A DNA stretch of 64,000 bases from Lysinibacillus sp. B2A1. Its GTDB lineage: Bacteria > Bacillota > Bacilli > Bacillales_A > Planococcaceae. Below the pieces are notes generated by a model. That model searched no databases. It saw only the letters and a list, made by a program, of their open reading frames with translations, and was not told the origin of the DNA. The stretch lies in NCBI GenBank assembly GCA_002973635.1, contig CP027224.1, positions 1,436,501 to 1,500,500 of the forward strand, given 5' to 3'. Position numbers and translations under genes: made by a program. Below, piece by piece: positions 29,141 through 49,513 of the stretch (within the stretch, counting starts at the first letter, position 1; each line of letters opens with the position of its first letter).

Positions 29141-29163
29141 AAGCAAGTAAATACGATATAAAA

Positions 29164-29548: not shown

Positions 29549-29559
29549 CATTGATTTTG

Positions 29560-29590
29560 AGCCTTCGTGTTGTATGCGAGGGCTTTTTAT
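29560..29590 (+). terminator. Terminator of the rhodanese gene
   Basis: AGCCTTCG and CGAGGGCT form an 8-bp stem (one G-U), followed by TTTTTATTTT. Confidence 0.85.
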
Positions 29591-29723
29591 TTTGGCGAAT
29601 ACAAGTGGAAATTTGTGTTTTGATGGGGGGGTTGCTGAATTGAGGGAAATATGTGCAGGATTAATTAGTATTTATGCTAGATAGAAGGCTGCTTGTGCTT
29701 GATAGCAAGAGAAAAATACATGA

Positions 29724-29753
29724 TTGAACGCAATTCAGTCTAACTGATATGAT
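29724..29753 (+). promoter_or_regulatory. Likely sigma-A promoter of the NERD gene
   Basis: TTGAAC (29724-29729) and TATGAT (29748-29753) are spaced by 18 bases, 25 bases before the TTG start at 29778. Confidence 0.5.
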
Positions 29754-29777
29754 AAGTACAAGAAAGGTGGTGATAAA

Positions 29778-30725: not shown

Positions 30726-30802
30726 AAAGATACACGATGAAAGCGGTCTTCATCGTATATCTTATTAAAATACATAAAAACCAACCATGAGAAGATTGAT
30801 GT

Positions 30803-30855
30803 AAAAAGCAGCTATTTTTTGTGTTTATTTAAAAAATAGCTGCTTTTTAATTTTT
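30803..30855. terminator. Strong terminator after the NERD gene
   Basis: AGCAGCTATTTTTT (30807-30820) and AAAAAATAGCTGCT (30831-30844) pair perfectly. A runs precede and T runs follow, so it can act on both strands. Confidence 0.9.
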
Positions 30856-30920
30856 TGCATTTTTAAAAATAATCAGAATTATGTATATTTTTGTTGTAAT
30901 GAAACGAAGGAGGAATTGAT

Positions 30921-31775: not shown

Positions 31776-31802
31776 TCGTTTAAAAAAGGAGGAAATACAT
31801 CC

Positions 31803-32663: not shown

Positions 32664-32675
32664 GAGGTGTTTTTT

Positions 32676-33689: not shown

Positions 33690-33712
33690 ATTGAGCCATT
33701 ATAAAAATATAG

Positions 33713-33755
33713 GGCAAGTTCACGGGCATTTTCTATTACCCCGTGTGCTTGCTTT
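33713..33755 (+). terminator. Intercistronic hairpin between binding protein and ATPase genes
   Basis: GCAAGTTCACGGG (33714-33726) pairs with CCCGTGTGCTTGC (33740-33752) with two mismatches; TTTAT follows. A partial terminator here would give more binding protein than transporter, as is common in ABC operons. Confidence 0.55.
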
Positions 33756-33774
33756 ATCAGAGGGGAGTGATTCT

Positions 33775-35301
33775 ATGACAAAGGCAGCACCTATCATCAA
33801 TATCACTAATTTATCAAAAAAATATGGTGAATTTTTTGCTAATCAAAGCATTCATATAACAATATCAAAAGGTCACTGCCACGCTTTTATTGGGCAAAAT
33901 GGCTCTGGTAAATCAACACTTATTGGCATGCTTTCAGGCAGAATTAAGCCAACAGAAGGCAATATTTTTATTGATCAAAATGAATTGCATTATGGCGATC
34001 CTCATAGCTCTAGAGAGGCTGGCATTGCAACAATATTTCAGGAATTAACCATCATACCGAATATGACCGCCTTAGATAATGTATTTCTTGGCTTTAAGGA
34101 AGATAAGTCAATTTTAGTCAATCGAAAAAAACGATTAGAACGATTTTATGAATTGAGCAAACTATTAAATACGCGTATTTCACCGAATTCTTATGCAATT
34201 GATTTATCTGTAGCCGATCAGCAGATTCTTGAAATCATGAGATGTTTAAATTTAGATTCCAAAATTCTAATTTTAGATGAGCCTACGTCCTCCTTAGCAC
34301 AGAATGAGAGGGAGGCTTTATTAGAGGCTTTAACGGAATTGAAAAAAAGAGGAATCACGATTCTTTACGTTAGTCATCATCTGGACGAAATCATGAAGAT
34401 TTGTGATTCATTTACGGTGTTAAAGAATGGTGTAGTTACGGAGCATAGCAGCATAGAGGGATGGACAAAGCAAAAAATTGTACATGCTATGCTTGGAGAA
34501 GAAATCGACAGTGATTTTAAAGAAATTTTAGTGCAGGAGTATCCAAATCAAATTCCTTCAGAGGAAATTATATTAGAGGTTGCAAATTTGGAGAGCTTCC
34601 ACTTTTTAAAAAATATATCCTTTACGTTAAAGCGAGGAGAAATTTTAGGCTTGGGTGGATTAGTGGGCTCGGGCAGAAGCGCAATTGCTAACACGCTTTA
34701 TGGGCTAGGCGAAAATTGTAAAGGAACGATTAAAATACAGGGGGAGTCAGTTAAAATCCCTTTTACACCTAGACAAGCAATTGGAAATGGAATCGTATTA
34801 GCCCCAGAGGACCGGAAAAAAAAGGGACTTCATTTAGGCTTTGAGGTACATGAAAACATTAATCTAATTGATTTAAAGCGTATTGGTTCCTATGGCTTTT
34901 TATCTACTAAAAGATCAAAAAAACTTGCTCAACAATATATACAGGAGTTTAAGCTAACACGACCGATTAACTCCATCGTTAAAAATTTATCAGGGGGAAA
35001 TCAGCAGAAGGTTTTATTGTCAAAGGTTACGAGTGTTAATCCGAAAGTTTTAATAGTAGATGAACCTACTAGAGGAATTGATGTTGGCGTTAAGTTAGAT
35101 GTGTTACGTAAATTAAAGGAGTTAGCGATGCAAGGTATGAGTATCATTATTATTTCCTCAGAGCTAGAAGAGGTAGTTGCTGTCAGCAATCGTGTACTTG
35201 TTATTTCTAAAGGAGAAATTGTTAGTGAACTAAAGGGCAAGGACATTAGTGTCAATAAAATCGTTGAATCAACGTTTTTGGAAGGGAGTCATCAGACATA
35301 A
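33775..35301 (+). CDS. ABC sugar-type ATP-binding protein with two ABC domains (RbsA family)
   Basis: ATG 33775 has GAGGGGAGTGATTCT before it; the longer frame reaching into the hairpin is rejected. The 508 residues hold two ATPase domains: the first with GQNGSGKSTL and ILDEPTSSL, the second with a degenerate P-loop GLVGSGRSAI, then LSGGNQQKVLLSK and VDEPTRGIDVG. The first domain lacks a clear LSGGQ (LSVADQQ), as is usual for RbsA and MglA. It shares one base with the permease start. Confidence 0.93.
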   Translation: MTKAAPIINITNLSKKYGEFFANQSIHITISKGHCHAFIGQNGSGKSTLIGMLSGRIKPTEGNIFIDQNELHYGDPHSSREAGIATIFQELTIIPNMTALDNVFLGFKEDKSILVNRKKRLERFYELSKLLNTRISPNSYAIDLSVADQQILEIMRCLNLDSKILILDEPTSSLAQNEREALLEALTELKKRGITILYVSHHLDEIMKICDSFTVLKNGVVTEHSSIEGWTKQKIVHAMLGEEIDSDFKEILVQEYPNQIPSEEIILEVANLESFHFLKNISFTLKRGEILGLGGLVGSGRSAIANTLYGLGENCKGTIKIQGESVKIPFTPRQAIGNGIVLAPEDRKKKGLHLGFEVHENINLIDLKRIGSYGFLSTKRSKKLAQQYIQEFKLTRPINSIVKNLSGGNQQKVLLSKVTSVNPKVLIVDEPTRGIDVGVKLDVLRKLKELAMQGMSIIIISSELEEVVAVSNRVLVISKGEIVSELKGKDISVNKIVESTFLEGSHQT

Positions 35302-36296
35302 TGAATAAACTATCTGAAGAGCAGAATTTGACTTCTTCTGGAAAACGAAGTCTGAATATTAGTAATATTAAAAATTTTGGGTTTAGATATGGCGTAGTGT
35401 TTGCATTTTTTGTGCTGATTATTATTTCCTCAATTGTTTACAATGGGTTTCTAAATCCTACTAATATATTAAATATGCTAAGTCAATTGGCGATTATTGG
35501 CATAATGGCTGCTGGAATGACCTATGTAATGATAACTGGTGGTTTAGATATGTCTATCGGAGGATTATACGCTGCAACGGCCGTCGTCGCTGCAAGCCTA
35601 GTAGATAACACATCTATTTTTGTAGCAGTAATTGTTGGTTTATCAGTTGGCCTCATTGCAGGTTTATTAAATGGTGTTTTAATCACTTATTTAAAAGTAC
35701 CTCCTTTTGTAGCAACACTGGGAACAGGCTCTATTTTCACTGGCTTTGCATTAGTATATTCGAAGGCACAGCCATTTTTTGTGAAGGACCCAGCCTATAA
35801 ATTTTTCGGTTCTCATTATATAGGACCTATTCCCGTTTCTGTCATTATTCTAGCTGTTATTTTTATTACGCTAGGGACAATTCTCTCTTATACGCTATAT
35901 GGAAAGGCACTATATGCAGTAGGAGGTAACAGTGAGGCTAGTAGATTAGCGGGGTTAAAGACAAATCGACTAGTCATTAGCACCTATATCATCTGTGGTC
36001 TATGTGCATCCATGAGCGGTATCATTTTATCATCTCGACTTGCACAGGGTCAGGCAAATATAGGGGAATCAATTGTTTTAGATGTAATAGCAGCTGTCGT
36101 TATTGGGGGTACCTCACTTTCAGGTGGACAGGGTGCAATTTGGCGAACATTTATTGGTGGAAGTATTTTAATCATGATTTCAAATGTTTTTGATAGTCTT
36201 TCCATCAGTACTTATTGGCAATCCATCTTTAAAGGCGCCATTATAATTGTCGCTGTTATGATCGATTTTTATGGACGTTCGAAGATTCAGAAATAG
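35301..36296 (+). CDS. ABC sugar-type permease (RbsC family)
   Basis: The 331-residue protein has about nine membrane helices and family motifs: AAGMTYVMITGGLDMSIGG, PPFVATLGT, LYAVGGNSEASRLAGL and AAVVIGGTSLSGGQG. ATG overlaps the ATPase stop (TAATG). It completes a binding protein/ATPase/permease importer of the ribose type. Confidence 0.93.
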   Translation: MNKLSEEQNLTSSGKRSLNISNIKNFGFRYGVVFAFFVLIIISSIVYNGFLNPTNILNMLSQLAIIGIMAAGMTYVMITGGLDMSIGGLYAATAVVAASLVDNTSIFVAVIVGLSVGLIAGLLNGVLITYLKVPPFVATLGTGSIFTGFALVYSKAQPFFVKDPAYKFFGSHYIGPIPVSVIILAVIFITLGTILSYTLYGKALYAVGGNSEASRLAGLKTNRLVISTYIICGLCASMSGIILSSRLAQGQANIGESIVLDVIAAVVIGGTSLSGGQGAIWRTFIGGSILIMISNVFDSLSISTYWQSIFKGAIIIVAVMIDFYGRSKIQK

Positions 36297-36310
36297 AGAG
36301 GATGAATAAA

Positions 36311-37057
36311 ATGCGCTTACACAATAAAGTAGCAATTATTACAGGTGCGGGAAATGGACAAGGGCTGGCAGAGGCAGAATTGTTCTTACAAGAGGGAGCG
36401 AAGGTTGTTGCCACAGATATTAATGGAGAGGCATTAGAGCTCTTGAGGAAGCGGCACATAGGAAATGATCATCTTTTCGTGCATAAACATGATGTATCCT
36501 CTGAGACAGAGTGGGAGATCGTTATTCAAAAGACCATTCAATTGTTTGGACGTTTAGATATTTTAGTGAATAATGCAGGCATACCTTCTAGAAGCTCAGT
36601 GATACATGAGGATTTAGAGGGCTGGAATAAGGTTATGAACATTAATGCGACGGGTACTTTTTTAGGCGTTCGAAAATGTGCTGAACACATGATAAAGCAG
36701 AAGGCAGGAAGTATTATAAATATCTCGTCTGTCTATGGAATTATTGGTGAAAAAGGCTATGTTTCCTATCATGCCTCAAAGGGAGCTGTCAGAAGCTTAA
36801 CAAAGGCAGCAGCAATGGATTTAGCCGAATACAATATACGTGTGAATTCTGTGCATCCTGGCATGATTGAAACGGAAATGACACGAGATCTTTTTGAGAA
36901 TAGTGAAAAAGCAAAATGGATGAAGGAAGTAACACTATTGCCATTTCTTGGAAAACCTCAGGATGTAGCCTACGGTGTTTTATATTTAGCGAGTGATGAG
37001 GCAAATTTTGTGACAGGCAGTGAGCTAGTTATTGACGGTGGCTGGATTGCGAAATAA
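36311..37057 (+). CDS. Short-chain dehydrogenase/reductase 1
   Basis: A classical SDR of 248 residues: cofactor motif TGAGNGQG, NNAG, the Ser of NISSVYG and YHASK (Tyr-x3-Lys), and the C-terminal GSELVIDGGW. ATG 36311 is spaced 9 bases from AGAGAGG; ATG 36302 abuts that site. It is probably NAD-linked. The first residues after beta-2 are ATDINGE, an Asp typical of NAD(H) preference. Substrate unknown; it belongs to the catabolic cluster. Confidence 0.9.
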   Translation: MRLHNKVAIITGAGNGQGLAEAELFLQEGAKVVATDINGEALELLRKRHIGNDHLFVHKHDVSSETEWEIVIQKTIQLFGRLDILVNNAGIPSRSSVIHEDLEGWNKVMNINATGTFLGVRKCAEHMIKQKAGSIINISSVYGIIGEKGYVSYHASKGAVRSLTKAAAMDLAEYNIRVNSVHPGMIETEMTRDLFENSEKAKWMKEVTLLPFLGKPQDVAYGVLYLASDEANFVTGSELVIDGGWIAK

Positions 37058-37078
37058 AGATTATTGATGGAGGTATAT

Positions 37079-37837
37079 ATGGCAAAGCGTATTCTAATTA
37101 CAGGAGCAACTGCTGGTATTGGCAGAGCCACTCTCGATAAATTTTATCAGGAGGGCTTTCATATCCTCGCATGTGATATTAATGCAGAGGAAGGCAGCAA
37201 GCTAAGTAGTATTTATGGTGCTCGGGTTGACTTTATAGAATTAGATGTTACAAATGAAAATAACTGGAAATCGTTACAAAGATATATACATGACAAAGAC
37301 TATCAAATTGATGTATTGTTTAATAACGCTGGGATATTTGTCATGAATGATATCGTTACAACCACAGAAAAAGAGTATCAGGCTATGTTTGATATTAATG
37401 TGAAGGGTAGCTTTTTAGCTTTAAAATATATTGCACCTATTATGTATAAACAGGAAACTGGCTCGATTATTCATGCATCCTCCAATGCCGCCTTTTTTGG
37501 TGCAAAAGGTCTAGGGATATACGGAGCAACTAAAGGTGCCATACGAACACTTACAAAAAACGCAGCAATGGAATTTGCACCTTTTGTACGAGTGAATTCC
37601 ATTCATCCTGGATATATTCAAACACAAATGATTGAGTATGCAGCGCAAAAAGCAAATAAAACGCCGCAGGATCAGGCAAAGTATGTACCATTAAAAAGAT
37701 TAGGACGTCCAGAGGAAATTGCATCATTAGTCTATTATTTAGGGAGCGAGGAAGCATCCTATATGACGGGTAGTGAAATAGTTATTGATGGTGGTGTATC
37801 TAGCGGCCAATCGATCTGGGAAGAGGAACAATCCTAG
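37079..37837 (+). CDS. Short-chain dehydrogenase/reductase 2
   Basis: A second classical SDR of 252 residues, with TGATAGIG, ACDINAE (Asp, NAD preference), NNAG, IHASSNAAFFG and YGATK, and GSEIVIDGGV. TGATGGAGGTATAT supports ATG 37079. It is only distantly similar to the neighbour upstream, so the two are unlikely to be a recent duplication and probably act on different steps. Confidence 0.9.
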   Translation: MAKRILITGATAGIGRATLDKFYQEGFHILACDINAEEGSKLSSIYGARVDFIELDVTNENNWKSLQRYIHDKDYQIDVLFNNAGIFVMNDIVTTTEKEYQAMFDINVKGSFLALKYIAPIMYKQETGSIIHASSNAAFFGAKGLGIYGATKGAIRTLTKNAAMEFAPFVRVNSIHPGYIQTQMIEYAAQKANKTPQDQAKYVPLKRLGRPEEIASLVYYLGSEEASYMTGSEIVIDGGVSSGQSIWEEEQS

Positions 37838-37860
37838 GAAACTAGACAGGGGTGAGAATA

Positions 37861-39201
37861 ATGTATTTATCGTTAAAATATAAATATCTTATTCTTACCC
37901 TCATTGTTTTTATATTGCCCTATTTTATGATGACTGTGATTTATATCAATAATGTTGGAGAATATCAAAAGAAGCTACTGATTGAAACAAGACTAGAAGT
38001 ATTGAAAAAAATTCATTATTTTAATTCGTCTTTTGAGAATAATCAAGCAAGCACAAAGGTATATCATGAAGTGTTAAATTCAATTTGGGGAAGCTACTCT
38101 GATTTTCTGTTATTAACAGAGCAAAAGGATATTAGATTTAGCACGAATTCCCATATCTCAGAGCATATGGAGTATTTTCGTAAATTAGAACCCCAGAAAA
38201 CCAATTACTATAAAATTGATTATTTGAATGTAGAACGAATTCTGATGTATTCATTTGATCCTTTTAATAATTGTTATTATGTTGTTATTGCTACGTCTGA
38301 TTCCATTTTTAAAGAGCTGAATAATAAAAAGGAGGATTTAATGGCCTTCGCCATTGCCTCTACTTTACTGCTAACCATTATCACTTTTTTATATTCCAAT
38401 AAAATTAGTACGACTCTGCAAATGCTTATTGAGCGTATTACCTCTTATAGAAAAGCGGTTTATCATATTGAAGATAAAGAGAAGAAGCCTACTTGGATTA
38501 ATGATGAGTTGAATATTGCCAATCAAGAATTAAATCAGACAATTGCATATATGGTAGAAAAGGAAAAAGACTATGTTCGAGAAAATTATGAAGCACAATT
38601 AAATAATTTACAAAGCCAAATTAATCCGCATTTTCTTTACAACACCTTAGACAATATTAATCAATTAGCTATGATTCATGAAGTTGAGGAAATCTCTACT
38701 TTAAGCGTTGGTCTAGCAAAGCTTTTTAGATATAACACGGGCAATAGTGAAAAGGAAACAACAATTGAAAAAGAGCTAGAAATTATTGAAGAATACATTA
38801 ATATTATGAAAATCAGAGTTTCTTATTTAGTATTTGATTTTCAGATAAAAGATAATGATTTATTACAAAGTGCTATTTTAAAATTTACACTTCAGCCAAT
38901 CGTTGAAAATATTTTTAAACATGGTTACAGCTATAAAGAGTCTATATCGATAAATATTGCTATTTATCGAAAAAAAAATGATGTCGTAATTGATATTTAT
39001 AACAATAGCGAATATAAGGACATTGCTCAAATAGCTATGCTAAATGAAAAAATAAATGAAGAAAATCATGAGGGTAGTATTGGATTGAAAAATGTAAATA
39101 GACGATTAAAGATAAAATATGGGGAAGCATATGGTGTTACAGTTCTAGTTAATGAACAAAAATACTTTGTGTCGAGAATTCTATTACCATATAAGAAATA
39201 A
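37861..39201 (+). CDS. Sensor histidine kinase, YesM/LytS-like type
   Basis: The 446-residue protein has a first membrane helix at about 10-28, an extracellular sensor loop of about 140 residues, and a second helix at about 165-183. The kinase part has QSQINPHFLYNTLDNI with the phospho-acceptor His257, then the ATPase N-box LQPIVENIFKHGY and GSIGLKNVNRRL. Kinases of this type with an AraC-type partner usually control nearby carbohydrate ABC importers. ATG 37861 follows AGGGGTGAGAATA. It overlaps the alternative start of the regulator. Confidence 0.92.
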   Translation: MYLSLKYKYLILTLIVFILPYFMMTVIYINNVGEYQKKLLIETRLEVLKKIHYFNSSFENNQASTKVYHEVLNSIWGSYSDFLLLTEQKDIRFSTNSHISEHMEYFRKLEPQKTNYYKIDYLNVERILMYSFDPFNNCYYVVIATSDSIFKELNNKKEDLMAFAIASTLLLTIITFLYSNKISTTLQMLIERITSYRKAVYHIEDKEKKPTWINDELNIANQELNQTIAYMVEKEKDYVRENYEAQLNNLQSQINPHFLYNTLDNINQLAMIHEVEEISTLSVGLAKLFRYNTGNSEKETTIEKELEIIEEYINIMKIRVSYLVFDFQIKDNDLLQSAILKFTLQPIVENIFKHGYSYKESISINIAIYRKKNDVVIDIYNNSEYKDIAQIAMLNEKINEENHEGSIGLKNVNRRLKIKYGEAYGVTVLVNEQKYFVSRILLPYKK

Positions 39202-39227
39202 TGTCTTCTAACAGTGAGGTGAGCTCT

Positions 39228-40532
39228 ATGAATATATTTATAGTAGAGGATGAGAACTTTATTAGAGAGGGACTAAGCTTTTTTATCAACAGAAATTTTA
39301 CTGAATCCCTACATGTCTTTTCTTATGCAACTGGGGAAGACATGTTACTGGCAGCTAAAGATATTTCCCCTGACATCGTTTTATCAGATATTAATTTACC
39401 AGGGATGAGTGGAATAGAGGCTGTATGGGAGCTAAAAAAGTTCCATCAGTTTAAGGTGATTTTTTTATCAGGCTATGATGACTTTCAATATTTGCAAAGT
39501 GCTATTCAAATTGGAGCAGAGGATTATATTTTAAAGCCGATTGATTATAAAAATCTAAAGCTAAAGCTGTCACAAACGATGGAAGCATTGAGCATGAAGA
39601 GACAAGTAGATTATTCCATCAAATATTATCAATTATTAAATTTAATATTGGCCTTTGATCAACAAATGACGGATAGTAATATTTATTCATTTGAATACTT
39701 TGTTGTCAGCATCAATCAAACAAAAAATACAGGAATTCCACACGCTCATGAGCTATTTCATTTTAATATTTTTGGGGAACATATTGAAATTATGAATACT
39801 GATTTTGTTTTGTCGTATAGTCAGGATCATCATATTGTTCTGCAAAGAAAAGACTTACATGATGTAAATCGAGCTGTGCTGGAGTTACTGCTGAAGAAGC
39901 ATCTAAATACAGGCGGCACTGCGCTAAACAAAAGAAAACCCATTTTTGATAATCAAATCTTTACGGATGAATTTAAATTACAAGAATTTATAGCGATTTT
40001 ACAAAATACAAACATTGAATTTCAGCAAAGATTAGAATTTATGATTACGTTCTTACTACAATATAGCATCCATTTCAATTGCTTTGAAACGTATAACAGT
40101 GCCCAAAAAATTATTAGTATTCACCATCAAATGATTAAAGAAGACAATCTATCAACAATAGTAAATAGCTATATCGAGCCGCTCGTAGATAAAATACTTA
40201 ATTTACATGGCAATAGGGATGATTTAGGTAAAAAAATAGTCGATTATATTTATACGCATTTTGATGATCCACAGTTGGATTTAAATTACTTATCAGGCAT
40301 ATTTAATAAAAGCCAAGCAAATTTAAGTATATTAATTAAAAAAAGCATTGATAAAAATTTCATCCACCTATTAAATGAACTACGAATTGATAGGGCAAAG
40401 CAGCTATTAGTTCATAGTAATAAAAGAAATAATGAAATTGCTTCGTTAGTGGGCTATAGTAATGAGGAGTATTTTAGTAAAGTATTTAAAAAATATGTTG
40501 GAATGACACCAGCCAAATATCGATCAATTTAA
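39228..40532 (+). CDS. Response regulator with AraC-type DNA-binding domain (YesN-like)
   Basis: Residues 1-120 are a receiver domain (VEDEN acidic pocket, phospho-acceptor Asp54 in LSDINLPGMSG, Lys in ILKPID). A variable middle of about 200 residues follows, then an AraC helix-turn-helix pair with RAKQLLVHSNKRNNEIASLV and GYSNEEYFSKVFKKYVGMTP. ATG 39228 has GTGAGGTGAGCTCT; ATG 39201 (overlapping the kinase stop) is a possible longer start. It should activate the importer/catabolic genes upstream. Confidence 0.92.
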   Translation: MNIFIVEDENFIREGLSFFINRNFTESLHVFSYATGEDMLLAAKDISPDIVLSDINLPGMSGIEAVWELKKFHQFKVIFLSGYDDFQYLQSAIQIGAEDYILKPIDYKNLKLKLSQTMEALSMKRQVDYSIKYYQLLNLILAFDQQMTDSNIYSFEYFVVSINQTKNTGIPHAHELFHFNIFGEHIEIMNTDFVLSYSQDHHIVLQRKDLHDVNRAVLELLLKKHLNTGGTALNKRKPIFDNQIFTDEFKLQEFIAILQNTNIEFQQRLEFMITFLLQYSIHFNCFETYNSAQKIISIHHQMIKEDNLSTIVNSYIEPLVDKILNLHGNRDDLGKKIVDYIYTHFDDPQLDLNYLSGIFNKSQANLSILIKKSIDKNFIHLLNELRIDRAKQLLVHSNKRNNEIASLVGYSNEEYFSKVFKKYVGMTPAKYRSI

Positions 40533-40624
40533 ATAGCAAGTGGATTTTGATTAAATAAGAATAGAATGATCGAGTGAGCATTTTAAGCTATATTAACCCT
40601 CTTACATCATTGGTTATCACAACG

Positions 40625-40720
40625 ATGAGTAAAAAAATGACTATGCTACAAATAATAGAAGCTATTCTATTACTTAGTGCGACCTTTATTAGTGAAATAG
40701 ATCAGAAAGAACGAAAATAA
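40625..40720 (+). CDS. Possible small hydrophobic peptide (holin-like toxin type)
   Basis: A 31-codon frame reads MSKKMTMLQIIEAILLLSATFISEIDQKERK: one hydrophobic helix and a charged tail. The IEAILLLSATFI..ID.K.RK pattern is like small type I toxin or holin-like peptides of Bacillales. No convincing ribosome binding site is present, but a hairpin (CATCATTG/CAACGATG) covers the start region and a terminator follows 13 bases after the stop. It is a weak call. Confidence 0.3.
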   Translation: MSKKMTMLQIIEAILLLSATFISEIDQKERK

Positions 40721-40732
40721 TGATAATTAACT

Positions 40733-40782
40733 GAGGCTATCTGAAAAATTAGAGGAAATCTGATTTTTCGGATAGCCTCTTT
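40733..40782. terminator. Bidirectional terminator
   Basis: GAGGCTATCTGAAAAAT and ATTTTTCGGATAGCCTC form a 17-bp stem with one G-U pair. It separates the two-component gene or small peptide from the convergent LuxR-type gene. Confidence 0.85.
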
Positions 40783-40806
40783 ACTATGTAATTTGCAATT
40801 ACTCAT

Positions 40807-41352
40807 TCATTTAACATTTAAAAGTCCATGTTTTATGGCAGTAACAACAGCACCAACACGTGAATTTACATCAAATTTTTGAATTATAGACGAAATATGG
40901 TGCTCTACTGTTCTTTTACTTATCCCCATTTCTAGGCTTATTTCACAATTTGTTTTGTCTTCTGCTATATGTAATAGTATTTCTAGTTCTTTCGCAGTTA
41001 ATTTCTTTTCAGAAAAATTAGCCTGAATTTGCGGAAGCATCTTATTCGTTTGATGAATGTATTTCCCCTCATTTAAATTTTCATTTGTCTTATTAGTTTC
41101 TTCCTCTATTCTTACACCAGTATGGTTTTTAATTAGAATAGGGGGATGATTAGGCATATTCTTTAGTAGATGGTTGAATAAATGAAGACCGTTAAAGGAT
41201 TTTATAGAAATATCCAAGACTATCTTGGATGGATAAATATCTGTAAATAACAAGGAAGGGTCTGGGATTCCCTTAACAGTATAATCAAGATTTTCTGTTT
41301 GAGTTTCTAGTAGCTCTGTTTTTTCTACAAATAACACATTAATGTTCATCAT
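40807..41352 (-). CDS. LuxR-type regulator with degenerate receiver domain
   Basis: The 181-residue protein ends in a LuxR helix-turn-helix (LTAKELEILLHIAEDKTNCE, ISLEMGISKRTVEHHISSII, VNSRVGAVVTAIKHGLL). The N-terminal half resembles a receiver, but the acidic pocket is VLFVEKTEL and only one Asp (KIVLDISI) remains near the phosphorylation site, so phosphorylation is doubtful. No kinase is adjacent. It is transcribed away from the peptide/radical SAM cluster, which begins 390 bases away, and is the best candidate for its regulator. GTG 41358, ATG 41352 and ATG 41349 are all possible starts behind ACGGAG. Confidence 0.85.
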   Translation of the reverse strand: MMNINVLFVEKTELLETQTENLDYTVKGIPDPSLLFTDIYPSKIVLDISIKSFNGLHLFNHLLKNMPNHPPILIKNHTGVRIEEETNKTNENLNEGKYIHQTNKMLPQIQANFSEKKLTAKELEILLHIAEDKTNCEISLEMGISKRTVEHHISSIIQKFDVNSRVGAVVTAIKHGLLNVK

Positions 41353-41358
41353 TTCCAC

Positions 41359-41745
41359 TCCGTTCTATAACAAGATGAGATATAGGAGAAAAGATCATAT
41401 GTTTCATCTAGGAAGCTATCGAACAAACTTTAAATGAAATCTGTTCTTTATTATCCATATATTAGCATAAATAGTTTTGCTATTTCTATGTAATTTGTGA
41501 AAAAATATGGAAATTTAAAATGAGTTAAGAACTATGTAAAAATATCTATAGTTTTGAAATTAAAGAAGGGTGACAAATACTCGCGAACCTACATATTTTC
41601 GTGAGTATCTGTGAAAAATTATAGGTGTTTTCCGTATAAATTATTGCGAGATATACCGATTTTTTTTATATGAAACCTGTTAGACTTTAAAAAAAGCAAA
41701 TGACTTTAAGTAGGTCAATTGTTTTGTTAAAGGGGAGGTGACATT
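41359..41745. promoter_or_regulatory. Divergent regulatory region of the RiPP cluster
   Basis: A near-palindrome, ATACTCGCGAA (41577-41587) and TTCGTGAGTAT (41598-41608), with 9-base spacer, is a candidate operator. A possible promoter is TTGCGA (41644-41649), 17 bases, TATATG (41667-41672), 74 bases before the precursor ATG. No other gene is seen in this stretch. Confidence 0.45.
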
Positions 41746-41904
41746 ATGTTAAAACAAATTAATAAGGGATTTAGTTCCGAAGTTAGTCTTTCCAGAACAT
41801 GTATTTTATGTGACAAGCGGGATACTTGTATTCACTGTGACAATTGGGATTGGACGTGTGAGAAGGGTAGTGAATTTTGCATTTTCAGTGATCATGATGG
41901 GTAA
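41746..41904 (+). CDS. Ranthipeptide-type (freyrasin-like) RiPP precursor peptide, 52 residues
   Basis: The gene has a near-perfect ribosome binding site (AAAGGGGAGGTGACATT before ATG 41746) and encodes MLKQINKGFSSEVSLSR as leader, then a Cys-rich core from Thr18. The cysteines are at 19, 22, 28, 31, 38 and 45. Residue +4 is Asp for Cys19 (D23), Cys22 (D26), Cys28 (D32), Cys31 (D35) and Cys45 (D49); for Cys38 it is Ser42, with Glu43 next. C-X3-D is the motif in freyrasin (PapA), where the maturase PapB links Cys sulfur to the beta-carbon of Asp. A radical SAM/SPASM gene follows 110 bases later. Tandem Cys pairs imply interleaved rings. No protease gene is visible in the cluster, so leader removal may need another enzyme. 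Confidence 0.88.
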   Translation: MLKQINKGFSSEVSLSRTCILCDKRDTCIHCDNWDWTCEKGSEFCIFSDHDG

Positions 41905-41929
41905 TGTTTATAGAAACTTATGAAATGGT

Positions 41930-41970
41930 GTGGAGTAAATGCATTTAAATGACACATGTATTTGCTCCAC
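41930..41970 (+). terminator. Intercistronic hairpin between precursor and maturase genes
   Basis: GTGGAGTAAAT (41930-41940) pairs with ATTTGCTCCAC (41960-41970), 11 bp with one G-U. No T run follows, so it is more likely a stabilising or attenuating hairpin that raises precursor mRNA over maturase mRNA than a full terminator. Confidence 0.6.
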
Positions 41971-42014
41971 ATTGCATATTGTAAACTTATTATGAATACG
42001 AGGGGAATTCATTT

Positions 42015-43436
42015 ATGTCTATCAATATTTTAAATACTACGAAAACAATTGCAGTTTCTAATATAAAAATAGTACGAGAGAATAAAAAAAACTATGTGTA
42101 TGTTCCTGTTTCAAATGCATTATTTGAAATTGATGATACTATTCATTTTATCTTGACAAGCAAACTAAAAAGTACGACAGAAATCTATAACCAGTTGAAG
42201 AATAAAATCAATGAAATTGAATTTAAAAACATAATAGATGCTTTAATTGAAAATAAGCTAATAAATTATGTAGAAGAAAAAACACTTATATCTCCTGAAA
42301 AATTTAAAAATATTAGTGCAATCACATTAATGATGGTACAGGAGTGTAATTTGCGCTGTAAATATTGTTATGCTGGCGATGGTGAATACAATGAAAAGGG
42401 CAGAATGTCATTAAAAACGGCAATTGCAGCAGTTGATTTTTTGATAGCACAATCAGGGAATAGAAATAATCTGTCAATTGTATTTTTTGGTGGGGAGCCA
42501 TTGCTGAATTTCGATGTGCTTAAGAAAATTGTCGAGTATGCAAACGCGCAATCAGAACTATACAATAAAAATATTAGTTATAGTATGACCTGTAATGGAA
42601 CATTAATAAATAAGGATATTACAAAGTTTATAGTTGAGAATAAAATTGCTGTTCAAGTGAGTGTTGATGGGAATGAAAATGCCCATGATATAAATCGATT
42701 TTATGGAAATAAAAAAGGTAGTTATGAGGTTATTATAAAACGAACAGAAGAACTAAGAAATAAAAGAAAGCTAGGAGTTAGATCTACAATTACTCCTGAG
42801 AATACAGATTTAGTTGAAATTTATAATCATTTATTTGATTTAAATTTCAGAAGCATTTATGCTGCACCTGCTATTCAAATGTTTACAGAGGAGCAATTTA
42901 TTGAACTTAATGAAAGCTATAATAGTTTGATACAATATTTCGAAGAATTAGTAGAAAACGAAGAATTTCATAAGGCTGTTAAAATCAATAATATTATGAA
43001 AAATTTAGAACGCATTCATGCTGGTTATGAATCTACATATTCATGCGGAGCTGAAGTGAATTTTTTAGCTGTAGACATTAATGGTGATTTTTATCCCTGT
43101 CATCGATTTGTAAACAATAAGGAATATAAGCAAGGAGATATTTTTGAAGGTGTAAATGAAGTTTCGAAAACAGATTTTCTAATGGAAGCGCATGTTTCAA
43201 ACAGGTTAAATTGTAATAGTTGCTGGGCTAAAAATCTTTGTGGTGGTGGATGTCATCATGAGAACTTAGAAATGACAGGAAAAGTAACTAATCCACCTAA
43301 ACAGTATTGTACTTTAACAAGAAAACAATTAGAAGGCTGTTTACATCTATATTTGCGTTTAACAGAAGAACAAAAAGAAATACTTTTAGAAAAGAATAAA
43401 GAGAAAGAGTTTGTTCGAAATGGAAATCAAAATTAA
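42015..43436 (+). CDS. Radical SAM/SPASM peptide maturase (thioether-forming, PapB-like)
   Basis: The protein has 473 residues. Residues 1-95 look like a PqqD-type leader-recognition element (VPVSNALFEIDDTIHFIL, then a helical EFKNIIDALIENKLI). The radical SAM core has Cys111-x3-Cys115-x2-Cys118 (ECNLRCKYCYAG) and VFFGGEPLL. The SPASM region has Cys344, Cys362, then C-x2-C-x5-C-x3-C (Cys400, 403, 409, 413) and Cys432/442, enough for two auxiliary clusters. CWAKNLCGGGCHHE is typical of maturases that form Cys-to-carbon thioethers. With the C-X3-D precursor upstream, the expected product is a peptide with Cys-Asp thioethers. GAGGGGAATTCATTT precedes ATG. Confidence 0.93.
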   Translation: MSINILNTTKTIAVSNIKIVRENKKNYVYVPVSNALFEIDDTIHFILTSKLKSTTEIYNQLKNKINEIEFKNIIDALIENKLINYVEEKTLISPEKFKNISAITLMMVQECNLRCKYCYAGDGEYNEKGRMSLKTAIAAVDFLIAQSGNRNNLSIVFFGGEPLLNFDVLKKIVEYANAQSELYNKNISYSMTCNGTLINKDITKFIVENKIAVQVSVDGNENAHDINRFYGNKKGSYEVIIKRTEELRNKRKLGVRSTITPENTDLVEIYNHLFDLNFRSIYAAPAIQMFTEEQFIELNESYNSLIQYFEELVENEEFHKAVKINNIMKNLERIHAGYESTYSCGAEVNFLAVDINGDFYPCHRFVNNKEYKQGDIFEGVNEVSKTDFLMEAHVSNRLNCNSCWAKNLCGGGCHHENLEMTGKVTNPPKQYCTLTRKQLEGCLHLYLRLTEEQKEILLEKNKEKEFVRNGNQN

Positions 43437-44292
43437 AAATCTAACGAAAAGCTATAAGAGTATCCGTGTTCTAGAAAATATTTCACTGGAAATCAATATG
43501 GGCGTTTTTGGATTGCTTGGCGAAAATGGTGCAGGAAAAACAACGTTAATGGAAATCATCTCTACTTTAATTCCTTTCAATCAGGGTGAAATAGAAGTAG
43601 CCGGAATTAACTTAAAAGACAATCCTCATGAGGTTCGTAAAATGTTAGGGTACTTACCGCAAAAATTTGATTTTTTTCCAAACGTAACTGTCGAAGAAAC
43701 TTTAGATTATCTATGTAGGCTAAAAGGTATACATAGAAAGGATGTACGCTCACAAGAGATTAATTTAAGACTTCAAGAGGTTAGCTTATTCAACGAACGA
43801 AAGAAAAAGGTTCAGGAACTTTCAGGTGGTATGAAGCAACGACTTGGCATTGCACAAGCATTAATAGGTGATCCTAAAATAATACTAATTGATGAACCAA
43901 CTGTCGGCCTGGATCCTCATGAACGTGTATCGTTTCGAAATTTAATTAACAGTATAAGTCGAAATAAAATTATTTTACTGTCTACACATATTGTGCAGGA
44001 TATCTCCTCAACCTGTAAGAGACTTATGATTCTCCAAAAAGGAAAAATCAATTATATAGGTGATACAGCTCAACTTATTCAACAGGTTCAGGGGAAGGTT
44101 TGGCTTCATCGCACAAAAAGTAGCCCTGATGAAATTATTCAATCCAAGTTGTTTGTATCCCTGCAAGAAAGAGAGCACGATATTGAAATACGATATATTG
44201 CAGATGAACCTATTCCAGGAAGTGCTGTAACAGCTCCTACATTAGAGGATGCGTATATTTTTATCAATAGAAAAGAGCAAACGATGCTATGA
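43420..44292 (+). CDS. ABC transporter ATP-binding protein (RiPP cluster)
   Basis: ATG 43420 overlaps the maturase stop by 17 bases, so the two are co-translated. The 290 residues have Walker A GENGAGKTT, signature LSGGMKQRLGIAQAL, Walker B IILIDEPTVGLD and STHIVQD. It resembles the ATPases of ABC-2/immunity-type transporters (BcrA/NatA-like). Two membrane subunits follow directly, so it probably forms an efflux or self-protection pump for the modified peptide. Confidence 0.9.
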   Translation: MEIKIKNLTKSYKSIRVLENISLEINMGVFGLLGENGAGKTTLMEIISTLIPFNQGEIEVAGINLKDNPHEVRKMLGYLPQKFDFFPNVTVEETLDYLCRLKGIHRKDVRSQEINLRLQEVSLFNERKKKVQELSGGMKQRLGIAQALIGDPKIILIDEPTVGLDPHERVSFRNLINSISRNKIILLSTHIVQDISSTCKRLMILQKGKINYIGDTAQLIQQVQGKVWLHRTKSSPDEIIQSKLFVSLQEREHDIEIRYIADEPIPGSAVTAPTLEDAYIFINRKEQTML

Positions 44293-44975
44293 ATGAACTA
44301 ATCGTATTATTAAATTTTGAGTTTAATAGACTAATAAAAAGTCTAGCAATCATTATTAGTTTAGTAATTTTTATATTTGTAGTACCTATAATGGTTATAT
44401 ATTTAAATTCGTTGGATGAAGTTCAAGGGAATTGGTACGCAGCTCTTCAAATACAAATGATTTTTCTTATTATACTTATTCCAAGCGTAGTTTCATATGT
44501 ATGGAAAGGTTACTTACATACATTTGAGCGAAATGTTATTTTGCTTAAACTAAACAAAAAGCCTATGTATATATTAGCCAAAATGATGGCCATCATATTG
44601 TTAATTTATATTGTGATTTTAATTTTTTATATTGTTTTATTTGGCTATTTTAAAGGAATGATTTCAATAACATTAATGTTCATTACTCTTTTTCAAGTAA
44701 TGAGTACTGTTTTATACTGTGTAGCATTTAATTTTTTAATCGCCTTTTTTTTAAAGCGCACAATCTATCTTCACATTATAACAATATTGTATTTATTACT
44801 TAGTATACAATTTATTAATTCACCCTTTTTATCTATCTGGTTTAATCCAGATTTACTTGAGACACAGTTGGTAAACCTTGTGTTTAATTTAAAAAGAATA
44901 GTTTTTTTATGTCTGGGAGTTTTTTTTATCGTTTTTAGCGTCTATCTTTTTGACAGAAGGATGAAAGAAATATGA
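44289..44975 (+). CDS. ABC-2-type membrane subunit 1 (RiPP cluster)
   Basis: The 228-residue hydrophobic protein has about six membrane helices, the first being LAIIISLVIFIFVVPIMVIYL. It begins inside the ATPase stop (ATGA-type overlap) and overlaps the next gene by 4 bases. No family signature is certain, so the role comes from position and topology. Confidence 0.8.
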   Translation: MNELIVLLNFEFNRLIKSLAIIISLVIFIFVVPIMVIYLNSLDEVQGNWYAALQIQMIFLIILIPSVVSYVWKGYLHTFERNVILLKLNKKPMYILAKMMAIILLIYIVILIFYIVLFGYFKGMISITLMFITLFQVMSTVLYCVAFNFLIAFFLKRTIYLHIITILYLLLSIQFINSPFLSIWFNPDLLETQLVNLVFNLKRIVFLCLGVFFIVFSVYLFDRRMKEI

Positions 44976-46240
44976 AAGATATAAGCTTATTTTGGTCTAA
45001 GGTTATCGTTCGTAATGATTATCTCTTCACTTATTATGCGTTAGTACTAGCCTTGTTCATTTCACAATTTTTCTTTACTGTAAATGATGCACAAGCGATG
45101 ATTCCTTTATATGGTATTTTTTCAGCCGTAATGACAATACAAATTATTTCATTGCATCAGCGTTATCAAATGGACAAAATCTTTTTAATTTCAATATTTA
45201 CTACAAGAAAAATAATTTTGTGGCAATGGGTATTAGGTTTTGTACTGACTTCACCGGCATTTATATTACTTGGATTTTTCGAGAAATATGTTTATGTTGA
45301 TACCCCTATTATTAATATTTTAGTTGTAATTATTATATTTCATATATTTACAATATCTATTCCATTTTTAGTAGCTACATTCTTTTCAAATCAATATACC
45401 TCTATTTTAATACTTGTTGTGATTTATTTTGTATTAATGTTAATGCATGGCTATAAATTGGAGATAATTCAATATATTGCACCTACGCTTAACTTTATGT
45501 ATCCAGATAATCTACATTATTTAAATTTTGTGGGTGTTTTATTTCTTTGTATTTGCTCTATGGCAGCGGCGGTTTGTTTTAGTAAAAGGCCAACATTAAA
45601 AAAAGACAAGTATTTCTTTGCTAGCTTAGCCAGTTGTTCAATTTTAGCAATAATTTGTTTACATCTGTATGAAGAATTCAAAGAGAACGAGCTAATGAGT
45701 CAGCCCTATGAAAGTTATGTATTCAATGAAATTACTGTTCAATATAAAGGAGTAAGTCAAAAACGAGCTGATCGATTTTCTGCTATCTATTCAGACCTTA
45801 CCCAACAAATGGCACAGTTCGGAATAAAAAATCCTTATCAAAAAATTAGTATTACTAAAGACTTTAATTTACCAATTAATAGAGAAGTCGGAAATATTAT
45901 AAGCATTAATGGAAAGACAATTGAAATACGTCCATATTCTAATAAATTTTTTGAATTTAATTATGGCTATAATATTATAGAAGATTTACTAAATATTTTA
46001 ATGAACGAAACTTGGAAGACAGAGAAACAGACGGTATGTTATGAGTTGTTAAAAAAAATTATTGAACAGAAAGTTATTCTAAATAATAACAGTGATTTAT
46101 TTAGTGAAGCAAAGCTGAAAACAATGAAAAATGAACAATTTCATACAACTACAGAATCATATATGACAGATTATCTTACTATTTTGAAAGAAAAACCTCA
46201 AGATGCTTATTCGTTTATCATAAAGTTGGAGAATCAATAA
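44972..46240 (+). CDS. ABC-2-type membrane subunit 2 with large C-terminal extracytoplasmic domain
   Basis: The 422 residues begin with six or seven membrane helices (to about residue 230, last at FFASLASCSILAIICLHL). A soluble C-terminal part of about 190 residues follows (ESYVFNEITVQYKGVSQKRA ... FEFNYGYNIIEDLLNILMNE). Some ABC permeases carry a peptidase M1 domain at this place, but no HExxH zinc motif is present here, so a degenerate relative or a peptide-binding module is possible. ATG 44972 overlaps the upstream gene by 4 bases. Confidence 0.75.
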   Translation: MKDISLFWSKVIVRNDYLFTYYALVLALFISQFFFTVNDAQAMIPLYGIFSAVMTIQIISLHQRYQMDKIFLISIFTTRKIILWQWVLGFVLTSPAFILLGFFEKYVYVDTPIINILVVIIIFHIFTISIPFLVATFFSNQYTSILILVVIYFVLMLMHGYKLEIIQYIAPTLNFMYPDNLHYLNFVGVLFLCICSMAAAVCFSKRPTLKKDKYFFASLASCSILAIICLHLYEEFKENELMSQPYESYVFNEITVQYKGVSQKRADRFSAIYSDLTQQMAQFGIKNPYQKISITKDFNLPINREVGNIISINGKTIEIRPYSNKFFEFNYGYNIIEDLLNILMNETWKTEKQTVCYELLKKIIEQKVILNNNSDLFSEAKLKTMKNEQFHTTTESYMTDYLTILKEKPQDAYSFIIKLENQ

Positions 46241-46276
46241 ATTGATAAGAAGATTAGGAGGCAAATAACATAATAC

Positions 46277-47971
46277 ATGAAGGTATTACTGGAGGTATTT
46301 AAATATACAGGTCCATATAACAGGAAATTAGTATTTATAAATACAATAATGTGCGTTTCGATGGGTTTAAACATAATACATCCTTTAATATTTGGTAGGT
46401 TTATAGATTATGTAACAAATAAGGAAGTAAGTAACGCATTAAAAATCATCCTATTTATTGCAATATTATTTTTAATTAATTTAGGCATTAAATTTATTCA
46501 GAAATATTATTTAGCGAAATTAATTGCTAACATTCAAATAGATGTTAAATTGAAAATGGTTAAACGAATTATGGCTAAGGATATGGATGATTATCAATTA
46601 ATTCCTAAAGGCGAAATGATGAATAAAATTGAAAACGATACAAAAGCTTTTTCAAATGTTCTTTCAGAGTTACTAAATATTTTCATCGATTGTATTAGTA
46701 TTCTAGTTGTGTTTATAATTTTACTAAATATCAATTTATTGTTAGTTTCGATTCTATTTATCACATGTCCATTAACATTATTTATCTTTAAATTTTATGG
46801 CAAAAAAATACGGAAAAAGGACATTAGTGTAAAGCAAAGTTTAGATCATTATCTAACATACTTAGGAGAGTTACTGTCATCTTTTAAATTGTTTAAATTA
46901 TTAAATAATGAAGCTGAGGGAGTAAATAGATATTCTCAAAAAAATGATTTAGTCTATAAACTATCGCTTGAAAAAATGTTGTTAAATATTAAATCCGGGA
47001 CAATAATAGAATTCATAAATTATATAAGCTATTTGTTGATTCTTATTTTAGGCGTCTATCTTATTTATAAAGAAGATTTGACTATAGGTATTTTAATTGC
47101 CTTTACTTCTTATTCAAATAATTTTAACCAGTCATTTTTAAGATTTGGACAACTAAATACCTTTTTTCAAGAAGCCATAGTATCCATAAATAGAGTTAAA
47201 AATCTACTAGATGTGCCTGCTGAAACAAAATGTGATGTAAACAATATGTCTAGTCATATGACGATACCTTCATTTGAGGAAGGTAGGATGGTGTTACGTA
47301 ACGTATGTTATGAATATTCTAATGAATTTTCACCAATTTTTAAAAATATTAATATTGCAATACCTTTAAAAAAAATCGTTCTTTTTAAAGGTGTGAGCGG
47401 ATCAGGAAAGACAACTTTGTTAAACATACTTTCAGGGTTATATGTAGGTTACACAGGGGAAATATTAATAAATCAATATAATGTGAAAAATATTCCTCAC
47501 CATATCTATAAGAAAAAAATATGTCTAGTCTCTCAAAATCATTTTTTACTATCTGGAACTATCAAAGAGAATTTACTTTTAGCAAATCCAGATGCTACTA
47601 ATGAAGATTTAATAAAAGTATGCAAGCTAGTAAATATATATGATTTTATAACGTCTTTGGAGAATAATTTTGATACATTAATTGGACATAATGGACTTGA
47701 TCTTTCTACTGGACAACAGCAGAGGCTTTCTATAGCGAGATCACTTTTAAGGGATGCCGAAATATATTTGTTTGATGAAATTACAGCTTCATTAGATAAA
47801 GAAAATCAGAGCATTATAGAATCTCTACTCATATATTTAAACAAAGTAAAGGGAAAAACCATTGTATTGGTGACACACGATTCAATGATAAAAAATGCAG
47901 CTGATTTAACATTTGAAGTTAAGAATGGTCAGATTCACCAAATTCAATCTGGTCTTTTTCCAACTTTCTAG
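46277..47971 (+). CDS. ABC exporter, fused membrane and ATPase domains
   Basis: The 564-residue half-transporter has an N-terminal six-helix type-IV exporter domain (residues 1-300) and a C-terminal ATPase with Walker A GVSGSGKTT (about 372-380), LSTGQQQRLSIARSL, Walker B IYLFDEITASLD and the H-loop VTHD. No peptidase C39 domain precedes it, so it would not cleave a double-Gly leader. It is the last gene of the RiPP operon and likely exports the peptide; lipid or drug export is the alternative. The start is uncertain: GGAGG lies 16 bases upstream of ATG 46277. Confidence 0.88.
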   Translation: MKVLLEVFKYTGPYNRKLVFINTIMCVSMGLNIIHPLIFGRFIDYVTNKEVSNALKIILFIAILFLINLGIKFIQKYYLAKLIANIQIDVKLKMVKRIMAKDMDDYQLIPKGEMMNKIENDTKAFSNVLSELLNIFIDCISILVVFIILLNINLLLVSILFITCPLTLFIFKFYGKKIRKKDISVKQSLDHYLTYLGELLSSFKLFKLLNNEAEGVNRYSQKNDLVYKLSLEKMLLNIKSGTIIEFINYISYLLILILGVYLIYKEDLTIGILIAFTSYSNNFNQSFLRFGQLNTFFQEAIVSINRVKNLLDVPAETKCDVNNMSSHMTIPSFEEGRMVLRNVCYEYSNEFSPIFKNINIAIPLKKIVLFKGVSGSGKTTLLNILSGLYVGYTGEILINQYNVKNIPHHIYKKKICLVSQNHFLLSGTIKENLLLANPDATNEDLIKVCKLVNIYDFITSLENNFDTLIGHNGLDLSTGQQQRLSIARSLLRDAEIYLFDEITASLDKENQSIIESLLIYLNKVKGKTIVLVTHDSMIKNAADLTFEVKNGQIHQIQSGLFPTF

Positions 47972-47995
47972 ATTATTTATCTTTATTCAGCAAAT

Positions 47996-48116
47996 GTTTT
48001 TGTATCGAAAGCATAGCGGCAGATGTTTTATGCGCGTAAGCGTAGCGACAGCGGCAGATACAGAAGACTTCCACCTCTACAGGCGCAAATACGCCAAGGC
48101 GAAATTGATACAAAAG
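47996..48116. repeat. GC-richer element bounded by inverted TTTTGTATC/GATACAAAA
   Basis: The stretch between TTTTGTATC (about 47998) and GATACAAAA (about 48108) is clearly richer in G+C than its neighbours and contains GCGTAAGCGTAGCGACAGC and a small GGCG/CGCC hairpin. It lies between the exporter gene and the cobalamin riboswitch. It has the look of a short repeated palindromic or MITE-like element, but only one copy is in the window. The open frame through it is not supported as a gene. Confidence 0.45.
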
Positions 48117-48184
48117 TGTAATAAAGATAATGCTGTCATATTGACACCCAAAAAACTTTACAGTAAATTAAAAGAAATTGCATA

Positions 48185-48345
48185 ATAGCATTGGGTGCCC
48201 ATTATGGGAGAATAGGGAATAAAGTGTAAGTCTTTAGCGGTCCCACCACTGTAAAAGGGAGTTTCATAGAGTATGCCACTAGCATGGTGCTGGGAAGGTT
48301 CTATGAAATGTTGAAATTGAGCCAGGAGACCTGCCTAATTGCTTC
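48185..48345 (+). promoter_or_regulatory. Cobalamin riboswitch (aptamer)
   Basis: The B12 box AGCCAGGAGACCTGCC (48320-48335) is present, as are the upstream core pieces TTGGGTGCCC (48191-48200), GCGGTCCCACCACTGTAA (48237-48254) and GCCACTAGCATGGTGCTGGG (48275-48294), in the order of the class. A terminator follows and then cobT. Adenosylcobalamin binding should favour the terminator and lower cobT expression. Confidence 0.93.
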
Positions 48346-48365
48346 GATTATATAGACGATGGAAA

Positions 48366-48412
48366 AGTCTGTAGTTTATTTATGATGAATAAACTACAGG
48401 CTTTTTATTTTT
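48366..48412 (+). terminator. Riboswitch expression-platform terminator
   Basis: AGTCTGTAGTTTATT (48366-48380) pairs with AATAAACTACAGGCT (48388-48402), with one G-U, followed by a T-rich run. It lies between the aptamer and cobT. Confidence 0.9.
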
Positions 48413-48451
48413 TCTCTAAAGCTCAATGTAAAATAGAAAGGGGAATGATTC

Positions 48452-49513
48452 ATGCAATTATTACAACAAACCATTGAAAGTATTCAACATGTAGACAGTC
48501 ATATGATGAAGAAAGCGAGAGAGCGTATAGATGCTCTTAGTAAGCCACCTGGAAGTTTGGGAAAACTAGAATCTCTTGCAGTACAATTAGCTGGTATTAC
48601 AGGAGAAATGTTTCCAAAGATAGATAACAAAGCAATTATTGTCTGTGCAGCAGATCACGGTGTTTGTGAGGAGGATGTAACTTCCAATCCACAAAAGGTA
48701 ACCTTTTTACAAACAATGAATTTTCCAAAAGGGCTTACGGGTGTTTGTGCTATCGCCAACATAACCAATGCAAAAATCGTAACAGTTGACGTTGGTGTAA
48801 AAGAAGATTTACCACTTGATGCTGGGGTCATTTTAAAGAAAATTAAATATGGAACAGACAATATGGCAAAGGGTCCAGCTATGTCAAGAGAAGAAGCTAT
48901 TCAATCCATCGAAGTAGGTATTGCAGTTGCAACGAGTGAAATAAGTAACGGAGTCGATATTCTTGGTACTGGAGAAATGGGTATTGGGAATACTACACCA
49001 AGTGCGGCTATCCTATCCGTGCTTCAAGCCTGTCATCCAAATGTAGTAACAGGAATGGGCGCAGGTGTTGGCGCAGGAGGAATTGCGCATAAGGTGGAGG
49101 TTATTCAAAATGCCATTGCATTAAACAAACCAAATCGCCACGATCCTATTGATATTCTTGCAAAAGTTGGTGGCTTAGAAATAGGTGCTATGGCTGGAAT
49201 TGTACTTGCAGCTGCAGCAAATCGCAAGCCTGTTGTTATAGATGGCTTTATTTCTACGATTGCTGCCCTCATTGCCTTTGAGCTTGAGCCAAAAGTAAAG
49301 GACTACATTATTCCTTCACATGCCTCAGAAGAACCAGGTGCTAAAATAGCAGCCAAGTTGTTAGGGATAGAACCAATGCTGCATATGAATATGCGTTTAG
49401 GAGAGGGCTCTGGTGCAGCTTTAGCCTTTCCAATTTTAGATGCAGCATGCTCCATGATGAAAAACATGGCTACACTTGAGGAATCTGTAGTGCTAGTAGA
49501 ATCGAATGAATAG
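48452..49513 (+). CDS. cobT: Nicotinate-nucleotide--dimethylbenzimidazole phosphoribosyltransferase
   Basis: CobT activates 5,6-dimethylbenzimidazole (or another lower base) as its riboside phosphate for the nucleotide loop of cobalamin. SKPPGSLGKLESLAVQLAGI, CAADHGVCEEDVTSNPQKVT, LGTGEMGIGNTTPSAA and GFISTIAALIA are family motifs; 353 residues is normal. GAAAGGGGAATGATTC precedes ATG. It is the only cobalamin gene here and stands alone under the riboswitch, pointing to salvage. Confidence 0.96.
   Translation: MQLLQQTIESIQHVDSHMMKKARERIDALSKPPGSLGKLESLAVQLAGITGEMFPKIDNKAIIVCAADHGVCEEDVTSNPQKVTFLQTMNFPKGLTGVCAIANITNAKIVTVDVGVKEDLPLDAGVILKKIKYGTDNMAKGPAMSREEAIQSIEVGIAVATSEISNGVDILGTGEMGIGNTTPSAAILSVLQACHPNVVTGMGAGVGAGGIAHKVEVIQNAIALNKPNRHDPIDILAKVGGLEIGAMAGIVLAAAANRKPVVIDGFISTIAALIAFELEPKVKDYIIPSHASEEPGAKIAAKLLGIEPMLHMNMRLGEGSGAALAFPILDAACSMMKNMATLEESVVLVESNE

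Follow-up and report, generated by a model that had tools for sequence, protein, structure and literature searches.

Gene content of the cluster

We analysed a 64,000-nucleotide stretch of the genome of Lysinibacillus sp. B2A1 (contig CP027224.1, positions 1,436,501 to 1,500,500), here called the window, and focused on a run of genes that very probably forms a freyrasin-type operon for a ranthipeptide with Cys-Asp rings, a degree of confidence that leaves aside the sixth ring discussed below. The features of the locus, with coordinates in the window, are as follows; the precursor types B and C are defined further on.

40807..41358, minus strand: divergent LuxR-type regulator, 183 amino acids, with a recognised DNA-binding end (PF00196)
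41746..41904, plus strand: precursor peptide, 52 amino acids with six Cys; leader about residues 1-18 (MLKQIN...), core about 19-52
41926..41974, plus strand: 19-pair stem-loop in the precursor-maturase gap, from folding; predicted attenuator or stabiliser
42015..43436, plus strand: PapB-type radical S-adenosylmethionine (SAM)/SPASM ranthipeptide maturase, 473 amino acids (NF047865, 425.5 bits)
43423..44292, plus strand: ATP-binding cassette (ABC) transporter ATPase subunit (PF00005), whose first ATG at 43423 overlaps the maturase end; homologs in other clusters
44289..44975, plus strand: membrane subunit 1; in L088 and in loci of types B and C, homologs adjoin the ATPase gene
44972..46240, plus strand: membrane subunit 2, of which L088 and loci of types B and C have homologs
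46277..47971, plus strand: ABC exporter with fused membrane and ATPase domains (PF00664, PF00005); homologs in other clusters

The genes downstream of the precursor are all on the plus strand and closely packed, and the regulator points away upstream. The initial annotation, made from the letters and reading frames of the window, had named a maturase, an ATPase, two membrane subunits, an exporter and a divergent LuxR-type regulator, and each was located as listed.

The precursor and its maturase

The precursor open reading frame comprises 52 codons from an ATG start and is preceded by a ribosome binding site (GGAGGTGA, 4-nucleotide spacing). Its Cys residues stand at positions 19, 22, 28, 31, 38 and 45, and five of them have Asp at +4, the exception being C38 with Ser at +4 and Glu at +5. 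This Cys/Asp pattern had been described correctly at the outset; C38 also has a Glu at +1 (E39), which that description lacked. The peptide therefore has Cys-X3-Asp motifs at five of six Cys in a core adjoining a PapB maturase 110 nucleotides downstream, and the PapA-like pattern, in which all six Cys stand in Cys-X3-Asp/Glu, breaks at C38. When core residues 18-52 were shuffled, at least five C-X3-D motifs arose with a frequency of 3.5e-5, or 4.8e-4 if any offset from 1 to 8 was allowed. Among the 414 mechanically listed reading frames of 30-120 amino acids in the window, the precursor alone has at least three C-X3-D motifs.

The maturase scored 425.5 bits against the NCBI PapB equivalog model NF047865, for which the cut-off is 340. 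In an alignment of 16 sequences its CX3CX2C motif (C111/115/118) is invariant, as are Cys 344, 362, 400, 403, 409, 413 and 432. Its R364 is the equivalent of PapB R372, which was present at the matching motif in all three Paenibacillus PapB sequences inspected; mutation of R372 is reported to abolish cross-linking in the Discussion of PMC9413430.

Some observations weigh against a freyrasin-type assignment. The freyrasin family ranthipeptide model NF037957 matched only residues 14-38 of the precursor, at 21 bits (E 0.00024), and so missed its cut-off of 30, a score that fits the initial description of the precursor as unannotated. On the maturase, the Pfam SPASM model gave 21.1 bits, just below the cut-off of 21.5. 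An N-terminal extension is present in the maturase and may hold a leader-binding (RRE) region, but no Pfam domain was reported there, and its alignment to PDB 5WGG is weak, starting only at residue 29. This structure, which has radical SAM and SPASM domains and which we take to be CteB, is the closest solved maturase relative by sequence.

Relatives and precursor types

Whole-genome searches with the PapB model yielded matches above the cut-off in 2 of 261 genomes from the window's family and in 15 of 394 Paenibacillaceae genomes (16 loci; this is the family of genome G608, as assigned from its named records), giving 18 loci in all. Those found in a class-wide draw (3 of 398 genomes) and in the genus of G608 (4 of 100) are all within the 18. 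Loci that fell below the cut-off in the family-wide and class-wide searches (L089-L091, L093-L110) were excluded from the counts; near them lay other or no Cys-rich precursors, L093-L110 having been covered to about 1.5 kilobases per side, and some of these precursors are presumably SCIFF-like. A separate profile search of contigs, made with the aligned maturases, retained 80 loci; identity was 42% for the best of them, from Paenibacillus ottowii (L003), and 29-36% for the other 79.

In 17 of the 18 loci a Cys-rich precursor ends 65-135 nucleotides upstream of the maturase. The remaining locus, in G786, encodes a short maturase and lacks a precursor within 400 nucleotides. The leader pattern M[L/F]xx[I/V]N occurs in 17/17 precursors, in seven of them after an in-frame N-terminal extension is trimmed, and its Asn has been proposed as required for binding in a passage of PMC9413430. 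A database search with the window's precursor alone returned no protein but the precursor itself, and a search with an alignment of 14 precursors gave 16 proteins at E <= 10, of which 14 lay below 1e-6 and the last two at E 6 and 7. These two, P0135 and P0136, carry the leader and first core residues of the precursor type of G002, another species of the genus, and then continue in a different frame; scores this weak point to relatives with a broken frame or a faulty gene call.

We grouped the precursors into four types of our own. Type A is that of P. polymyxa PapA, with two nested pairs between an N-terminal in-line motif and a C-terminal motif; it is equated with PapA from the six-ring description in print and from proteins named 'freyrasin family ranthipeptide [Paenibacillus polymyxa]'. 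Types B (L128, L129, L134-L137) and C (the window, G002, G790, G814, G824) carry an additional fifth Cys and no N-terminal motif. The spacing is altered in the short precursors of type D (L126, L127, L132). A maturase tree of 34 rows, 17 of them type-labelled, recovered one group per type with high support (A 100/100, B 100/100, C 99/99, D 100/99). G002 shares the gene order of the window's cluster (precursor, maturase, ATPase, two membrane proteins, exporter), and so, judged by best match, does type B, the membrane proteins and exporter of type B being only about 21-32% identical to those of the window.

The 17-residue core C-x2-C-D-x2-D-x-C-x2-C-D-x2-D is found in 14/17 precursors, among them those of the P. 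polymyxa PapA type. Homologs without this Asp/Cys spacing had been named beforehand as evidence that would count against the cluster; the spacing is kept in these 14 and changed in the three short type-D precursors. The latter are 42-44 amino acids long, with some Cys-to-Asp distances other than +4 (for example CDYPKD and CDGGKLD), and lie next to two ABC genes of exporter-like kind and to PapB-type maturases that score above the cut-off; their ring pattern may differ more than that of the window's peptide.

CxxC pairs resemble metal ligands, and the two in the window's peptide, C19/C22 and C28/C31, could point to an unmodified metal-binding mini-protein of zinc-knuckle or rubredoxin-like kind, with the nearby maturase acting elsewhere. 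We regard this as very improbable. In precursors of types A, B and C the core Asp residues are conserved as strictly as the Cys, an identical core is present in the P. polymyxa PapA type, and the gene lies 110 nucleotides upstream of a PapB-type maturase, at a distance within the range of 16 other precursors of the family.

From the paired CxxC spacing the initial annotation had also supposed that the ring topology may be new. We rejected this idea, which is largely refuted: the +4 Asp core recurs across the family, PapA-type precursors share the spacing, and the two CxxC pairs of the window are spaced exactly as in the PapA nested unit, for which nested rings are published. According to section 8 of PMC9413430 (Eastman et al.), native PapA carries both in-line and nested linkages, and among nested peptides CX3D is favoured over CX0D and CX6D.

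Together, a maturase score above the PapB-model cut-off, an equivalent of R372, the related precursors and the conserved gene content support the description of the locus as a freyrasin-like ranthipeptide cluster. Judged on sequence, maturase family membership, motif conservation and gene content mark the locus as a new and intact representative of the freyrasin/PapB kind that departs from it at one conserved point, C38; every chemical bond, export, immunity and any biological role are inferred.

A possible Cys-Glu ring at C38

The initial annotation had found both the paired spacing and the odd sixth Cys unexpected. The second remark survives in narrowed form: an extra Cys without its Asp is kept in types B and C, and a Glu always precedes the next Cys. 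In 11/11 type B and C loci (8 distinct precursors) the interval from the fifth to the sixth Cys contains Glu and no Asp, the Glu standing at +5 in type C, at +4 in L128 and L129 and at +3 in L134-L137. Across the five type-C sequences the predicted ring residues are invariant at 12/12 positions versus 4/23 other core positions (Fisher p 2e-6), a value that overstates the case because the sequences are closely related and the 12 residues were picked after viewing the alignment.

We tentatively propose, at just under an even chance, that the maturase of this clade makes a natural Cys-X4-Glu ring (S-Cgamma; X2 or X3 in the sister type) alongside its Cys-X3-Asp rings. PapB is described as accepting Glu in passages of PMC9413430 and PMC8172795, and Eastman et al. 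report, in a section on a minimal substrate, complete Cys-Xn-Asp conversion for n = 1-5 (PMC9413430). Against the ring, a review passage states that Cys-X4-Asp in PapA is not processed by PapB (PMC8172795), which disfavours C38-E43 if the window's enzyme is equally strict; a further acid, E39, adjoins C38 and is non-conserved. Our literature search saw no natural Cys-Glu ring in a ranthipeptide, although one may be in print; for QhpD, Cys-Glu links in an enzyme subunit are described in part of PMC11002830.

The peptide might instead contain only five Cys-Asp rings, with C38 left as a free thiol, a disulfide or another link and the Glu serving leader or target recognition, a reading to which we give somewhat less than an even chance. 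It would account for the missing Asp at +4 of C38 and agrees with the review's statement on Cys-X4-Asp. It sits less well with a fifth Cys and later Glu, with no Asp between, being retained in every type B and C locus, with the tolerance of PapB for Glu and varied spacing on the minimal substrate, and with PapA itself, where six rings are formed from six Cys according to a passage of PMC8172795. If the Cys-Glu ring is real, one enzyme would handle acceptors of two types and rings of several sizes on its native substrate, and the natural ring would be useful for peptide-stapling enzymes. The native Cys-X4-Glu substrate could decide between the conflicting statements on the spacing strictness of PapB-type enzymes.

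The hairpin between precursor and maturase genes

The gap at 41905-42014 folds with a dG of -30.8 kcal/mol (z -4.7), and 0/200 dinucleotide shuffles were as stable. Across the precursor-maturase gaps of 17 loci the longest stem had 7-19 pairs, and z was <= -3 in 12/17. The gaps above this value, which are not clearly unusual, are four of the six of type B (L134 -2.4, L135 -1.0, L136 -0.5, L137 -2.8) and one of type A (L131 -1.9). In the 13 of 17 gaps that were viewed, the hairpin sequences vary between precursor types. A role as an attenuator giving partial control of read-through is possible.

Transport, regulation and a model for biosynthesis

Family-model and Pfam scans gave no family match for membrane subunit 1 and no significant match for membrane subunit 2. 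In the Pfam scan of the exporter, PF00664 and PF00005 were the sole domains over their cut-offs; no C39 leader-peptidase domain was reported, and leader removal is therefore probably supplied by a protease from outside the cluster, none having been recognised within it. Transporter gene sets of this kind are usually read as serving secretion together with self-protection. Scans for promoter patterns gave 48 matches in comparison with a shuffle mean of 45.4, no better than shuffles. Relatives of the LuxR-type regulator comprising only the helix-turn-helix part are divergent from the precursor in L088 and L150. Fuller-length relatives (38-41%) occur at the same genomic site, free of the cluster, in L143 (5394-6008, minus strand) and L147 (3429-4091, minus strand), the former adjoining ABC transporter genes.

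These data allow us to propose a model for the pathway. The precursor leader (MLKQIN...) would dock on the N-terminal part of the PapB-type maturase, which with one SAM-binding and two auxiliary iron-sulfur clusters would join core Cys sulfur to the carbon beside a side-chain carboxylate. The predicted products are two nested ring pairs (C19-D23 with C22-D26, and C28-D32 with C31-D35) and an in-line ring (C45-D49), C38-E43 (Cys-X4-Glu, S-Cgamma) being the least sure. The stem-loop behind the precursor gene may limit read-through, leaving more precursor than enzyme. Secretion of the peptide is probably the task of the fused ABC exporter; the ATPase with its two membrane subunits probably protects the producer or assists export.

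Distribution and genomic site

At E <= 1e-80 the maturase was found in 2/32 genomes of the genus, the window's own included, and both clusters lie between genes that we take, from their families, to be miaA and cobT. Among 20 further miaA-cobT intervals, drawn from the 30 remaining genomes, one (G018, locus L150) holds a broken copy at the same site: only maturase residues 374-473 were found and the precursor ends early, with the neighbouring transporter genes largely present. The 44-residue precursor of G018 is identical to P0127, named freyrasin family ranthipeptide of Lysinibacillus sp. FJAT-14745, so the freyrasin family had already been named in Lysinibacillus. The present locus adds a full freyrasin-kind cluster for the genus, with a nested Cys/Asp core common to most of the precursors found here.

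This scattered occurrence at a single site would agree with ancestral presence followed by loss, or with repeated exchange. Such rarity, together with the visibly broken third copy, could also mean that this strain carries a decaying or silent cluster. This appears unlikely, as every gene in the window is an uninterrupted open frame, starts and stops overlap in most of them, and the precursor and maturase retain all key residues.

The miaA-cobT stretch (28801-48452 in the window; loci L142-L161) is a variable insertion site in the genus, holding a freyrasin-type cluster in some species. At this site L155 is free of the cluster and has counterparts, with 89-95% protein identity, of four window genes used as queries (30921, 33661, the histidine kinase at 37852 and the regulator at 39201); in L152, L159 and L161 the interval is short. 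A cobalamin riboswitch (48176-48352, plus strand; Rfam RF00174, 103.1 bits) lies upstream of the gene at 48452-49513, presumably cobT.

Comparison with known systems

The closest described system is freyrasin (PapA/PapB) of P. polymyxa. The maturase of the window is of the PapB type and 42% identical (P0018), and the precursor shares with PapA the leader MLKQIN, two nested C-x2-C-D-x2-D pairs and a C-terminal C-X3-D. As in freyrasin clusters, an ABC exporter lies behind the maturase, and an ATPase with two small proteins is nearby; in the window the ATPase and its neighbours are part of the operon, whereas in PapA-type (type A) clusters they are divergent. PapA has an N-terminal in-line C-X3-D ring without counterpart in the window's peptide, which in turn has C38, with Glu at +5, in a longer spacer.

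The type-C relatives, from Paenibacillaceae genomes G790, G814 and G824 and from G002, share the 52-residue layout and the Glu at +5 of the fifth Cys, and their maturases are 59-71% identical to that of the window; G790, G814 and G824 differ in having the exporter gene before the ATPase and membrane genes. Type B has the same nested core, an extra fifth Cys followed by Glu and, by best match, the same gene order, but its Glu is at +3 or +4, its spacer is one residue longer and its maturases are 38-43% identical. More distant is the CteB/SCIFF (thermocellin) maturase of 5WGG, which likewise combines radical SAM and SPASM domains. It differs from PapB in having Gln at the place aligned with the PapB Arg, and its acceptor residue is Thr according to passages of PMC8172795 and PMC8326336.

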